This document shows, in pieces, positions 3,175 through 25,106 of a stretch of 38,245 bases of DNA. Position numbers and translations under genes: made by a program. This DNA comes from an uncultured bacterium. Lineage in GTDB: Bacteria > Cyanobacteriota > Vampirovibrionia > Gastranaerophilales > Gastranaerophilaceae. Within the stretch, counting starts at the first letter, position 1. Each line of letters starts with the position of its first letter. The stretch spans positions 1 to 38,245 of the forward strand of contig CANAIK010000011.1 in NCBI GenBank assembly GCA_947361225.1. The letters are read 5' to 3'. The notes beneath the pieces are model-generated. The model was given only the letters and a program-made list of their open reading frames with translations. It made no database searches and was not told where the DNA came from.

Positions 3175-4080
3175 TTGGAAGACGCTAGTGTAAAAAAGAA
3201 TAAGATTCTAAGGGTAATTACAGGGGTTATTATCTCGATTATCTCAATTGCGGCAATAATTCTAGGGTCAATCCCGCTTTATTTGCTTTTGTTGGTAATT
3301 ATTGTTTTGTGTTGTCGTGAATTTGTGCAAATTCTAAAACACAAGGGTTTTCATCCGAGTTTACCGATTATTCTTTTTTCTGCAATCGTTTTTACAACCC
3401 TAACTTTTTTCCACAGATTCGATCTTGTTCCTTCGATGCTAACATTAACTATCGTTGCGTCTTTTTTGATTGTTTTATTCTTAGGCAGACAACCCTATAT
3501 AGTTAATGTTGCAACAACGACACTGGGAGCGCTTTATTGCGGGTGGCTGCCTTGTCATTTGCTTTTGATAAGACAAATCGGGCTCGATAGGGTTGGGGCT
3601 TTTGCTTTCCATCCCTCACAAGGGTTATTTTTGTTGTTATTTGTTTTTTTAGCTGTTGCAATGACAGATATTGGGGCTTATTATTTTGGAGTTCGTTTTG
3701 GAAGACATAAATTAGCTGAAGTTATAAGTCCTAAAAAAACAATTGAAGGAGCAGTCGGAGGAGCTTTTTGTGCGGTTTTAATTTCAATAATCGGAATTTA
3801 TTATGCTGATTTGAGTTTGTGCCAAGCTATTATTGGAGGTTTATTAATAACATTATCTGCTCAGTTGGGCGATTTGTCAGAGTCTTTAATCAAAAGGGAC
3901 GCAGGAGTTAAGGATTCAAGCGATATTCTCCCGGGTCACGGCGGGATGCTGGATAGGTTCGACGGGTATATTTTTGCAATTCCCGTTGCATATTATTATT
4001 TTATGCATTTTTGTCAGGGCTCTAATGTCTTTATTGAATGTTTTAATTATTTAAAAGGTGCTATCAATGTCTATTTCTAA
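3175..4080 (+). CDS. cdsA: phosphatidate cytidylyltransferase (TTG start)
   Basis: Inner-membrane enzyme making CDP-diacylglycerol from phosphatidate and CTP, the branch point of phospholipid synthesis. The 301-residue protein has about eight hydrophobic segments. The family signature lies near the C-terminus: SLIKRDAGVKDSSD followed by ILPGHGGMLDRFDG, carrying the conserved K-D, H-G-G and D-R-x-D residues. The start is TTG at 3175, supported by GGAG at 3164-3167 with a 7-base gap; there is no nearby ATG. Its end overlaps rnc by 14 bases, suggesting translational coupling. Unlike E. coli, dxr and uppS do not sit between frr and cdsA. Confidence 0.95.
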   Translation: MEDASVKKNKILRVITGVIISIISIAAIILGSIPLYLLLLVIIVLCCREFVQILKHKGFHPSLPIILFSAIVFTTLTFFHRFDLVPSMLTLTIVASFLIVLFLGRQPYIVNVATTTLGALYCGWLPCHLLLIRQIGLDRVGAFAFHPSQGLFLLLFVFLAVAMTDIGAYYFGVRFGRHKLAEVISPKKTIEGAVGGAFCAVLISIIGIYYADLSLCQAIIGGLLITLSAQLGDLSESLIKRDAGVKDSSDILPGHGGMLDRFDGYIFAIPVAYYYFMHFCQGSNVFIECFNYLKGAINVYF

Positions 4081-4795
4081 AGAAAGAATGGAAGTATTAT
4101 TAGATTTTCAAAAAAAATATGATTTTAATTTTTCAAACCCTGAACTTTTGAATCAGGCATTCTGTCATACTTCCTATACAAGAGAAAATAATTTAGAGGT
4201 TTCAAAGTCTTATGAAAAACTCGAATTCTACGGAGATGCGGTATTAAAATTGGTTGTAAGCGATATTGTTTACAATTATTTTACCAATTATGCAGAAGGA
4301 ATCCTGACAAAACTTAGAGCAGAGGTAATTTCCGATAGAAATATCTTTAGATATGCACTTTCATTGGGTTTCGATAAATTAATCCTATTGGGGGATAATG
4401 AAAGAAAACAAGGGGGACAAAAAAAAGAATCCATCCTTGCTTGTGCTTTTGAGGCTCTTTTAGGGGCAATATTTATAGAATATAAAGACGAAGGATACAA
4501 AAAAGCGTTTTCTTTTATTAAGGATAATTTTTTTGATGATATTATATCGATTGAAAAAGAATTGAATAAGCTTAATCCTAAAGCAGCGCTTCAAGAATAC
4601 ACTCAATCCGTTAACCACAAACTTCCTAAGTACAATGTTGTAAGGGAAGAAGGAAAAGAACACGAAAAAACTTTCTTTGTTGAGGTTGAATTCGAAGGGG
4701 AAGTTATTGGGGCGGGAAGTGCCAAAAGTATTAAAGTTGCGCAACAAGAGGCTGCTCTTTGTGCGCTAAAAAAACTGGGAGTGATAGGTGAATAA
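4067..4795 (+). CDS. rnc: ribonuclease III
   Basis: Double-strand-specific endoribonuclease for rRNA processing and sense-antisense RNA decay. The start at 4067 (MSISKERMEV) is preferred over an in-frame GTG at 4058 because AAAGG lies 7-8 bases upstream. The product has 242 residues. The catalytic domain has the signature KLEFYGDAVL at residues 51-60, and the second acidic site is in ACAFEALLGAIF. A double-stranded RNA binding domain covers about residues 168-240 (PKAALQEYTQ to AQQEAALCALKKLG). It overlaps cdsA by 14 bases and rpe by 8. RNase III is also the enzyme that would degrade the duplexes predicted for the antisense pair at 22933-23590. Confidence 0.97.
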   Translation: MSISKERMEVLLDFQKKYDFNFSNPELLNQAFCHTSYTRENNLEVSKSYEKLEFYGDAVLKLVVSDIVYNYFTNYAEGILTKLRAEVISDRNIFRYALSLGFDKLILLGDNERKQGGQKKESILACAFEALLGAIFIEYKDEGYKKAFSFIKDNFFDDIISIEKELNKLNPKAALQEYTQSVNHKLPKYNVVREEGKEHEKTFFVEVEFEGEVIGAGSAKSIKVAQQEAALCALKKLGVIGE

Positions 4796-22897: not shown

Positions 22898-22938
22898 CAA
22901 ATTTTTTTTCTGTGACGAATTGGGGACTAAGCGAAAAT

Positions 22939-22967
22939 TAGACAACCCGGATTCAATATGGTAGAAT
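22939..22967 (+). promoter_or_regulatory. promoter of hydrophobic peptide gene, copy 1
   Basis: TAGACA (22939-22944, 5 of 6 to TTGACA), a 17-base spacer, then TAGAAT (22962-22967, 5 of 6 to TATAAT). The predicted start is near 22974, giving a leader of about 87 bases. The leader holds an 8-bp stem, TCTATCGG (23003-23010) with CCGATAGA (23035-23042), ending just before the ribosome site. Confidence 0.75.
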
Positions 22968-23060
22968 AGCCATAGTAATCGGGCACTCTTGAAAACTTAA
23001 TCTCTATCGGCACGAACTGTAAACTCGGACGCTTCCGATAGACGAGGAGGTGAGAGCCTA

Positions 23061-23156
23061 ATGTTAACAAAGTTAATGCTAGTGATAATATTATCACTTT
23101 TAGATATTAAAAAACTAGCACTAATAGCGTTAATAACAGTGCTAGTATTCAATTAG
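23061..23156 (+). CDS. 31-aa hydrophobic peptide, candidate type I toxin, copy 1
   Basis: ATG at 23061 follows AGGAGG (23045-23050) by 10 bases; AGGAGGTGA is close to a full anti-16S match, one of the strongest ribosome sites in the window. The peptide begins MLTKLMLVIILSLLD, has IKK in the middle, and continues LALIALITVLVFN. Apart from Lys4, Asp15 and Lys17-Lys18 it is almost wholly L, I, V, A, so it should insert in the inner membrane. Small size, strong ribosome site, structured leader and an antisense transcript fit type I toxins (Fst, Ldr, TxpA, Ibs), but I see no direct sequence match to a named family. An alternative is a regulatory RNA with an incidental frame. Confidence 0.72.
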   Translation: MLTKLMLVIILSLLDIKKLALIALITVLVFN

Positions 23157-23215
23157 AATACAATCGAGAGTTAAAATTTAAAGGTTTTTGAGCGAACCTT
23201 TAAAGCTCGATTGCT
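23109..23215 (-). ncRNA. candidate antisense RNA (antitoxin), copy 1
   Basis: Predicted transcript of about 105 nt. The promoter at 23222-23250 gives a start near 23215. Termination is at ACTAGCACT / AGTGCTAGT (stem arms 23138-23146 and 23114-23122, 15-base loop) followed by six T, the last of them at 23109. It is fully complementary to the 3' half of the peptide gene (codons 17-31) and to the terminator hairpin of its message. Its own 5' end folds into the complement of that hairpin, and GTATTC-TAATT-GAATAC gives a middle hairpin. Mutual hairpins suit loop-loop contact, as in RatA/TxpA or SR4/BsrG. Transcription is predicted, not shown. Confidence 0.68.
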
Positions 23216-23218
23216 TTT
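23161..23218 (+). terminator. terminator of hydrophobic peptide message, copy 1
   Basis: Outer stem CAATCGAG (23161-23168) with CTCGATTG (23206-23213) and inner stem TTTAAAGGTT (23177-23186) with AACCTTTAAA (23195-23204), followed by CTTTTAT. The hairpin lies wholly within the region covered by the antisense RNA. Confidence 0.75.
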
Positions 23219-23221
23219 ATC

Positions 23222-23250
23222 ATTATTTACTATATTCCCCCTTTTGTCAA
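23222..23250 (-). promoter_or_regulatory. antisense promoter, copy 1
   Basis: On the minus strand: TTGACA (23245-23250, a perfect -35), 17 bases, AATAAT (23222-23227, 5 of 6 to TATAAT). This is a better promoter than the sense one, as expected when an unstable antitoxin RNA must be in excess. Confidence 0.78.
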
Positions 23251-23274
23251 GATGCTAACTTTATTTAGGAAAAT

Positions 23275-23303
23275 TAGACAACCCGGATTCAATATGGTAG
23301 AAT
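23275..23303 (+). promoter_or_regulatory. promoter of hydrophobic peptide gene, copy 2
   Basis: TAGACA (23275-23280), 17 bases, TAGAAT (23298-23303). Identical to copy 1. The leader stem is at 23339-23346 and 23371-23378. Confidence 0.75.
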
Positions 23304-23396: not shown

Positions 23397-23492
23397 ATGT
23401 TAACAAAGTTAATGCTAGTGATAATATTATCACTTTTAGATATTAAAAAACTAGCACTAATAGCGTTAATAACAGTGCTAGTATTCAATTAG
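23397..23492 (+). CDS. 31-aa hydrophobic peptide, candidate type I toxin, copy 2
   Basis: Same 31-codon frame as copy 1, with AGGAGG at 23381-23386 and stop TAG at 23490-23492. Because the two coding parts are identical as read, the peptides are the same and each antisense RNA could act on either message. Retention of both intact copies, rather than decay of one, argues for either very recent duplication or selection on dose. Confidence 0.72.
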   Translation: MLTKLMLVIILSLLDIKKLALIALITVLVFN

Positions 23493-23551
23493 AATACAAT
23501 CGAGAGTTAAAATTTAAAGGTTTTTGAGCGAACCTTTAAAGCTCGATTGCT
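23445..23551 (-). ncRNA. candidate antisense RNA (antitoxin), copy 2
   Basis: Equivalent of the copy 1 antisense RNA. Start near 23551; terminator stem arms at 23450-23458 and 23474-23482, with the T-run ending at 23445. It covers codons 17-31 and the 3' untranslated region of copy 2. Confidence 0.68.
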
Positions 23552-23557: not shown

Positions 23558-23586
23558 ATTATTTACTATATTCCCCCTTTTGTCAA
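23558..23586 (-). promoter_or_regulatory. antisense promoter, copy 2
   Basis: On the minus strand: TTGACA (23581-23586), 17 bases, AATAAT (23558-23563). Identical to copy 1. Confidence 0.78.
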
Positions 23587-23676
23587 GATGTAACATAGGA
23601 GGAGGTTGTAATTGAAATTTATAAAGATAGAAGTTTGAAAGTTCTTTTTAGTCAAAATCCTAAAATCACGATTGCG

Positions 23677-24023: not shown

Positions 24024-24341
24024 ATGATAGAAAAGGCAAAAAATACATTTATCATAAGAAATATGATAAATAATGACGATATTAAGTGCATTTTCGGAAC
24101 TGCTGTAAAAAATTTAAGGCAGGAAAAAGGAATTACTCAAGAAAAGCTTGCAGAATTCCTTGATATAGAAAGACAAACTGTAGCCACGATTGAAACAGGT
24201 AAAAGATTTGTTTCAAGTGAATTGCTTTCTAAACTTTGCAATTTTTTCAATGTCGAACCTTATGTTTTCTTTGTCAAACAAGGTAAAACTTACACTAAGG
24301 AAGATTTAGACTATATTGAACAAATAACATTTAAAGCTTGA
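24024..24341 (+). CDS. XRE-family HTH regulator
   Basis: 105 residues from 24024; a second ATG at 24063 would give 92 residues and also precedes the whole HTH, and neither has a clear ribosome site. The Cro/C1-type HTH covers about residues 26-83 (VKNLRQEKGITQEKLAEFLD, then IERQTVATIETGKRFVSSEL, then LLSKLCNFFNVEP), with the typical Q-x-x-L-A and S/T-I-x-x-E/I-x-x-G patterns. It should bind DNA as a dimer and probably controls itself and the divergent orphan gene. It is the first of three HTH genes in a row. Confidence 0.88.
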   Translation: MIEKAKNTFIIRNMINNDDIKCIFGTAVKNLRQEKGITQEKLAEFLDIERQTVATIETGKRFVSSELLSKLCNFFNVEPYVFFVKQGKTYTKEDLDYIEQITFKA

Positions 24342-24474: not shown

Positions 24475-24735
24475 ATGCAAGACGATGCTAAAATACTATA
24501 CAAGGCAATTTCCAGGGTAGTTGCCAAAATAAGAAAAGATAAAGGTATAAAATATACCGATTTTTGCTATGAAAACGATATTCCAATGTCAACTTATGAT
24601 GATATAATAAACCACAAAACAAAAGCTTCTTATTATAATGTTGCAAAGGTTGTTCGTGCGCTTGGGTTGAGTTTTGAGGAATTCGGAGCACTTTTGGATA
24701 AGGAACTACCCAAGGATTTTTTTAAGGAACTCTAG
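24475..24735 (+). CDS. small HTH protein, tandem paralogue 1
   Basis: 86 residues. A diverged HTH (KYTDFCYENDIPMSTYDDII near residues 26-45, then YYNVAKVVRALGLSFEEFGA near 53-72) is similar in layout to XRE domains. The last 32 residues (VAKVVRALGLSFEEF to the end KDFFKEL) are almost the same as in the next gene, while the first 54 share only about a third. It has no obvious ribosome site; an AT-rich upstream stretch (TATTATATTATTA) ends at the ATG, so the message may be leaderless. It may be a DNA-binding partner of the XRE protein. Confidence 0.78.
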   Translation: MQDDAKILYKAISRVVAKIRKDKGIKYTDFCYENDIPMSTYDDIINHKTKASYYNVAKVVRALGLSFEEFGALLDKELPKDFFKEL

Positions 24736-24845: not shown

Positions 24846-25106
24846 ATGCAAGAAAAAGATTTAGAATTGTATAGAATCGTTGGAAAAGTTCTTCGACAGG
24901 AAAGATTGAGGAAGGATTTAAAGTTTACCATTTTTTGTTATGAGAATGATATTGCAACTTCTTCTTTAAACTCAATTGAGAATGCAAGGGCTCAAATATA
25001 TTTTTCCAACATTGCAAAGGTTGTTCGTGCGCTTGGGTTGAGTTTTGAAGAATTCGGAGCACTTTTGGATAAGGAATTACCCAAGGATTTTTTTAAGGAA
25101 TTATAG
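24846..25106 (+). CDS. small HTH protein, tandem paralogue 2
   Basis: 86 residues, same length as its neighbour. The N-terminal half differs (LELYRIVGKVLRQERLRKDL; FCYENDIATSSLNSIENARA), including the expected recognition helix, so the two probably bind different sites. The C-terminal 32 residues match apart from one Val/Ile change, and in the DNA (24640-24735 against 25011-25106) only 5 of 96 bases differ, mostly silent. This suggests gene conversion of the 3' part or a recent copy of that part. The region upstream (24743-24780) is also similar to that before paralogue 1 (24375-24412). Confidence 0.78.
   Translation: MQEKDLELYRIVGKVLRQERLRKDLKFTIFCYENDIATSSLNSIENARAQIYFSNIAKVVRALGLSFEEFGALLDKELPKDFFKEL

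Follow-up and report, generated by a model that had tools for sequence, protein, structure and literature searches.

The stretch of DNA analysed here (the window, 38,245 nt; contig CANAIK010000011.1 of assembly GCA_947361225.1) comes from an uncultured bacterium of the Gastranaerophilaceae and contains a compact unit in which a gene for a short hydrophobic peptide on the plus strand is overlapped by a predicted antisense RNA gene on the minus strand, an arrangement that we read as a probable type I toxin-antitoxin system. The whole unit is duplicated at +336, with 300 bases identical (Table 1). The open reading frame (ORF) encodes a 31-amino-acid (aa) peptide, MLTKLMLVIILSLLDIKKLALIALITVLVFN, which AlphaFold, with single-sequence input, models as one helix spanning residues 2-30 (predicted local distance difference test, pLDDT, of 92.7). 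A small hydrophobic peptide ORF equipped with a Shine-Dalgarno (SD) sequence, a feature of type I toxin-antitoxin systems, is therefore present in the window unit.

On the minus strand, an earlier note on this DNA had reported a promoter composed of TTGACA, 17 nt and AATAAT, and this sequence is indeed found at 23250-23222 with 11 of 12 matches, tying with its counterpart in copy 2 as the most promoter-like site of the region. The antisense RNA predicted to start behind it has a minimum free energy (MFE) of -32.4 kcal/mol (z = -6.4 against shuffles) and, running from 23215 to 23109, covers the 3' half of the ORF, which ends at 23156, together with the 3' untranslated region (UTR), which is the layout of BsrG/SR4. 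Its intrinsic terminator, with the stem ACTAGCACT/AGTGCTAGT, lies within the coding region as claimed, in codons 18-29 of ORF 23061-23156 where the note had given 19-29; the 9-bp stem with six T described there did not hold, as a 9-bp stem is followed by five T and an 8-bp stem by six. All these signals together make up a candidate antisense RNA gene with its own promoter and end, complementary to the putative toxin mRNA, and at the level of sequence the layout of an antisense transcription unit in the window is confirmed as real. Additionally, the co-fold of the sense and antisense RNAs is predicted to gain -99.8 kcal/mol beyond the separate folds, and rnc, which the note had placed at 4067, was found with the domains expected from its name (Table 1).

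The contention that such a co-occurrence of signals would hardly arise by chance was borne out by several comparisons. A promoter with at least 11 of 12 matches followed within 150 nt by a comparable terminator was found twice in the 38-kb window when both strands were searched, these being the two copies, and the combination did not appear in any of 12 dinucleotide shuffles of the window. Furthermore, only 7 of 3000 synonymous recodings of the window peptide kept a comparably good terminator, and none was found in 572 antisense stretches of 96 nt from other window genes.

Table 1. Features of the two-copy unit and of related elements in the window (coordinates are positions in the window).
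Feature	Position	Strand	Remarks
RNase III gene (rnc)	4058..4795	+	Ribonuclease III and dsrm domains; candidate nuclease for the sense/antisense duplex
Copy 1 sense promoter, TAGACA-17-TAGAAT with TG before the -10	22939..22967	+	recurs at the paralogue on contig C29 (95% identity over 38 nt)
Copy 1 predicted toxin mRNA	22974..23220	+	MFE -77.4 kcal/mol, z -6.8
Copy 1 5' UTR hairpin, CTATCGG..CCGATAG	23004..23041	+	immediately 5' of the SD
Copy 1 Shine-Dalgarno, GAGGAGG	23044..23050	+	read from the sequence
Copy 1 ORF of the 31-aa hydrophobic peptide	23061..23156	+	
Copy 1 antisense intrinsic terminator	23109..23146	-	stem 23114-23122/23138-23146, loop 15, U tract 23113-23109
Copy 1 predicted antisense RNA (antitoxin)	23109..23215	-	about 107 nt, two hairpins
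Copy 1 nested hairpin, CAATCGAG..CTCGATTG	23161..23213	both	mRNA 3' structure; antisense RNA 5' hairpin on the other strand
Copy 1 antisense promoter, TTGACA-17-AATAAT	23222..23250	-	-35 at 23250-23245, -10 at 23227-23222
Copy 2 sense promoter	23275..23303	+	
Copy 2 31-aa peptide	23397..23492	+	identical to copy 1
Copy 2 predicted antisense RNA	23445..23551	-	terminator within the ORF
Copy 2 antisense promoter	23558..23586	-	copy 2 antisense unit is 23586-23445
Remnant of a phage DUF1353 (tail chaperone, phrog_1158) gene start, IEIYKDRSLKVLFSQNPKI	23611..23667	+	phmmer E 4e-7

Within its own genome, the unit has counterparts at other places for its two promoter regions only (95% over 38 and 41 nt on contig C29; 88% on contig C14). 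The C29 unit has a different peptide gene, MSDFNLSLFLIFLILFIFKNGSYPKGKNR, between its promoters and a different antisense terminator, again inside its ORF. The promoter motif ATTATTTACTATNTTNNNCNNNTTGTCAAG occurred in 125 of 383 genomes of the family, with up to 19 sites in one genome and no matches in the controls, and all named records that matched it belonged to Ca. (Candidatus) Gastranaerophilales, 'Melainabacteria', an uncultured cyanobacterium or uncultured bacteria. A ribosome-binding site followed by a short ORF was present at 111 of the 160 motif sites examined, and 110 related units from Candidatus Gastranaerophilales genomes, sampled via the antisense promoter motif, passed our filters. 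These units share a chassis made of a sense promoter (at least 9 of 12 matches in 84 of 105 relatives), a putatively SD-masking 5' UTR, a mostly hydrophobic ORF of 20-36 aa and an antisense promoter, and this chassis carries several unrelated peptide types, namely A (MDNFNISLLLIFLILYILKNGSYLNR), B (MVDKIIMLLLAFSIAVIALNLLKP), C (MTKEIIKTVITVIITVLQIVIYWL), D (MKIWITEKALWLILLIIIALIFAK), E (MVNLLATIIKALVILELLAKLILALITL), F (MGLGFFLILDFIIKSLKEKAPELELLELFLNS) and that of the window. The exact window peptide had no relatives among 191 genomes, its type being known from its two copies only. At one locus (L113; G163:C28:18350-20800) seven units stand in a tandem array with at least three peptide types. 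The motif, in the form CTTGACAAA..ATAGTAAATAAT, also precedes seemingly ordinary genes at two loci (L058 and L067), as a strong lineage-specific promoter type would; since it seems to drive ordinary genes too, it is not by itself a specific marker and was rejected as such. A viral contig (L190) was likewise discarded as a carrier, its motif match lying in an ordinary gene region with no unit.

The relatives allowed us to evaluate the selection acting on the antisense RNA. The overlap of the 3' half of the gene plus the 3' UTR, which had been compared to TxpA/RatA and BsrG/SR4, recurs in about 110 relatives of matching anatomy. Homologous units devoid of the antisense promoter or terminator had been named in the earlier note as grounds for abandoning the proposal; on examination, these grounds did not materialise, as the terminator was found inside the ORF in 105 of the 110 units, and in 102 it outscores 95% of synonymous recodings. 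In many peptide types a Lys or Ile stands just before the hairpin because the A tract that corresponds to the T tract of the antisense RNA is located there. Among 29 type A antisense RNAs, standard pairs fill 97.7% of pair cells and both sides have changed in 11 of the 26 pairs. None of 500 shuffles and none of the slid controls reached such values, so that the covariation proposed as a check was recovered in the form of compensatory base changes. A covariance model of this RNA matched 82 of 289 genomes of the class, all in the family of the window except one, which belongs to the same order, and 58 of 292 genomes in a phylum-level sample, all in the family; in the window's own genome it found four places at E < 1e-12. 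Additionally, the antisense promoter is often a different sequence at the same place (TTGAAA..TATAAT versus TTGACA/AATAAT), indicating that its position and function are kept and not its letters.

The mRNA also shows signs of a conserved architecture. In the predicted fold of the window mRNA, AGTAATCGGGC at the 5' end is paired to GCTCGATTGCT at the 3' end, forming a 5'-3' clamp that involves the first 19 bases, and 5'-3' pairing of the AapA/IsoA kind is thus found both in the MFE fold of the window unit and in the clamp covariation of type A. In the latter mRNAs (n = 43), the opening CAGGGT..GATGCTCTTTT is paired to the closing AAGGGCATC..ACCCTG and several pairs are compensated; type C shows a weak end pairing with some compensated pairs, and the type B alignment did not recover the clamp, though its 3' and ORF hairpins were recovered. 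In the window, the mRNA begins with AGTAATCGGGC and the antisense RNA with AGCAATCGAGC, both starting AGYAATCGRGC; judged by this likeness, the mRNA 5' end is an imitation of the antisense RNA, predicted to occupy the same site in the mRNA 3' end. Moreover, in 84 of 100 units the exposure of the SD is lower than when the 5' UTR is shuffled. As a separate observation, a perfect 18-nt palindrome, AGTGATAATATTATCACT, is found in the ORF at 23081-23098, upstream of the antisense terminator and followed by TTT on the plus strand; it could possibly act as a pause site or early terminator of the sense mRNA.

Coding sequences and their decay provide information about the peptide. Outside the hairpin, all pairwise comparisons among 41 type A genes gave 906 differences at codon position 2, compared with 3462 and 4328 at positions 1 and 3, respectively; as position 2 is nearly frozen there, a hydrophobic peptide is under selection. 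For the decay test, 50 places were sampled with the antisense RNA model, which spans neither the ORF start nor the promoter. Both the ORF and the antisense promoter were present in 36 of these places, the antisense promoter only in 13, the ORF only in none and neither in one. Losses of the toxin ORF included single-base frameshifts, premature stops, 5' truncations and the replacement of the start codon by ATA or AAG with the rest of the unit intact; one of these antisense-only ghosts is found on contig C14 of the window genome. This asymmetric loss, 13 to 0, is the direction of decay to be expected if the two parts were a poison and its antidote.

About 110 relatives of the same anatomy, the compensatory changes, the antisense promoters kept in place and the 13:0 decay lead us to consider it very probable that each unit is a type I toxin-antitoxin module, in which a membrane peptide would be silenced by an antisense RNA, and that it is often phage-carried. 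In the mechanism that we propose, the plus strand would produce the mRNA for a 31-aa single-helix membrane peptide, and the minus strand an RNA of about 107 nt, transcribed from the strong promoter behind the gene and ending at the terminator inside the peptide ORF. For the 3' end of the mRNA, the antisense RNA would have a competitor in the mRNA's own 5' end, and the long duplex formed with the mRNA would leave the message untranslated and exposed to RNase III; translation block and RNase III, alone or together, are about equally likely as the mode of inhibition. If the antisense RNA were lost, the peptide would be made and the membrane, its presumed target, harmed. What sequence and comparisons establish is the anatomy, the two promoters, selection on the antisense structure and on the coding sequence, the asymmetric loss and the phage surroundings; transcription and toxicity are inferred.

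Several aspects of the data weigh against this interpretation. Neither sample is free of selection, because the 110 units were collected via the promoter motif and the 50 places via the antisense RNA model. The toxin ORF also offers mutations a larger target than the promoter does, and even in the absence of selection it should be lost somewhat more often; a fourfold larger target gives 0 of 13 a chance of about 5%. In two of the 13 antisense-only units the promoter is weak (9 of 12 matches), a score that random 54-nt stretches reach in 12.6% of cases, and 5 of the 110 units, mostly of the TEKAL type, have no terminator by the criterion used. Furthermore, covariation can be evaluated on chassis relatives only, as no coding sequence of the window type is known beyond its two copies, and the SD of the window unit is masked only in part (mean P(unpaired) 0.29).

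The genomic context of the units links them to phages. On contig C29 the unit is flanked on one side by a phage-related gene (phrog_14311/6034) and on the other by a DUF1353 / phrog_1158 tail chaperone gene (Pfam and PHROGs), and a viral contig (L081) carries a different unit type in the equivalent place, adjoining an endolysin gene. Of the 39 units whose locus spans at least 2.9 kb, about 15 lie near one of two tail-region genes, a count that excludes weak 'amidase' neighbours at distance 0, which were rejected as artefacts because an N-terminal extension of the query ORF reads through the promoter motif. In the window, a fragment of the DUF1353 gene start lies behind copy 2, and the intact gene follows the paralogous unit on C29. 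Beyond 23667 the sequence is unlike this gene, which points to a prophage scar, here adjoining a 2-oxoacid:ferredoxin oxidoreductase operon; the window pair is most likely the remainder of a decayed prophage. The modules would thus often travel with Gastranaerophilales phages and persist in chromosomes after prophage decay. BLAST searches gave no matches against plasmids and, against phages, AT-rich chance matches in Staphylococcus phages only. In a comparison aimed at terminal inverted repeats of mobile elements, the bases adjoining the -35 agreed more often between the two unit ends than between shuffled pairs (2.58 versus 2.12 of 6; 0 of 2000), kinship being uncontrolled in these values. 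Regulators of the helix-turn-helix (HTH)/XRE type were dismissed as fixed neighbours (9 of 39 units versus 16% at random positions, not convincing). Separately, the window contains two similar 86-aa proteins in tandem (24475-24735 and 24846-25106) behind an HTH_3 regulator (24024-24341), the first of them with a weak HTH match.

This neighbourhood, with units between a tail-region gene and the endolysin or DUF1353 gene on the viral contig and on C29, together with the single hydrophobic helix, could also suit a phage lysis or exclusion module, in which the antisense RNA would time the production of a holin-, antiholin- or superinfection-exclusion-like peptide. We regard this as improbable: the units have their own promoters on both strands, stand in tandem arrays that mix peptide types and count as many as seven units (L113, G163), and are also found at chromosomal places with no recognised phage genes, while their peptides are much shorter than holins and matched no holin family at cut-off. 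In addition, a lysis timer would not be expected to lose the toxin and keep the antisense RNA. The same pattern, with the antisense part outliving the ORF in 13 of 14 decayed units, argues against a regulatory antisense RNA that tunes a harmless, useful small membrane protein and forms no addiction pair; such a system could have the identical anatomy, yet the multi-copy, patchy and phage-linked distribution is typical of selfish toxin-antitoxin genes, and we give this explanation a smaller chance still. Lastly, an artefact of repeat-derived palindromes resembling a promoter and a terminator is practically negligible: the two copies, being identical, count once and promoter-like sites are common in AT-rich DNA (17 found versus 6.8 expected from shuffles), yet the combination is missing from the shuffles and the comparative data, with conservation and compensatory changes across dozens of genera, refute it.

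Returning to the type I modules, their organisation suggests an exchange of cores between fixed ends. The C11 and C29 units of the window genome have promoters that are 95% identical (window 22935-22972 and 23217-23259) around an interior that cannot be aligned, and one other genus has four peptide types within nearly the same promoter pair (L047, L106, L107 and L108). A speculative extension, which we hold to be rather unlikely as a whole, is that promoters and outer ends form a fixed chassis and toxin/antitoxin cores move in and out of it as cassettes; the family would then be a recombining pool, carried by phages, of cores that do not protect against one another's toxins, and phages might use it in competition.

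Type I systems have been reported only from Proteobacteria, Firmicutes and Tenericutes, apart from a 2025 candidate from Microcystis (PMC12390103). For Gastranaerophilales we found no paper on type I systems in a literature search that had most subscription journals outside its coverage. Pending a toxicity test, the units would constitute a new family of a known kind, undescribed in this class: a large one, with several unrelated peptide types and phage carriers, in a gut lineage of the cyanobacterial phylum. It also offers a large natural alignment in which one DNA stretch has to encode a membrane helix while its opposite strand encodes a terminator, and its ghost units amount to a culture-free genetic test of toxicity.

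Regarding known systems, searches of Pfam, NCBIfam, PADLOC and Rfam gave no relevant match for the peptides or RNAs, weak let-7/miRNA scores being chance hairpins; membership of the toxin or RNA in the TxpA/BsrG families was not found in these four databases, nor membership in AapA/IsoA, with no Rfam match and peptide types that match neither Pfam nor NCBIfam. In Hok/Sok of plasmid R1, the mRNA 5' end folds back on the 3' end and the full-length mRNA is inert. The present mRNAs share this folding, whereas Sok pairs with the leader and the mok start and not with the 3' end, and no leader ORF was seen in the present units. If the phylum is taken in the wide sense, it has one other candidate type I system, msoT1/msoA1 of Microcystis, which also has an antisense RNA overlapping the gene; this system comes from photosynthetic cyanobacteria and has a 63-aa toxin with two predicted helices (PMC12390103), by which description, and not by sequence, it is set apart. 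AapA mRNAs of Helicobacter form a long-distance 5'-3' interaction and SD-masking structures during transcription (PMC6733600). The present units resemble AapA/IsoA in 5'-3' pairing, a short hydrophobic peptide, several loci per genome and decayed 'ghost' loci, which T1TAdb records for that system, and may resemble it in SD masking; in contrast, no sequence relation was found and the antisense RNA here terminates within the ORF, of which it covers the 3' half in addition to the 3' UTR. In this last respect the closest parallels are BsrG/SR4 and TxpA/RatA, type I systems of Bacillus subtilis prophages whose antisense RNA overlaps the 3' part of the mRNA (PMC6562991). Common to both sides are a small hydrophobic peptide, a convergent antisense RNA with its own promoter on the mRNA 3' part (100-140 bp), a prophage location, a partly masked SD and an available RNase III; the units described here differ in having no sequence relation to them, shorter peptides (20-36 aa), an mRNA whose 5' end is paired to its 3' end, many unrelated peptide types on one chassis and a different phylum. 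Taken together, we conclude that the units very probably represent a new type I toxin-antitoxin family that would work like BsrG/SR4 with an AapA-like mRNA clamp.
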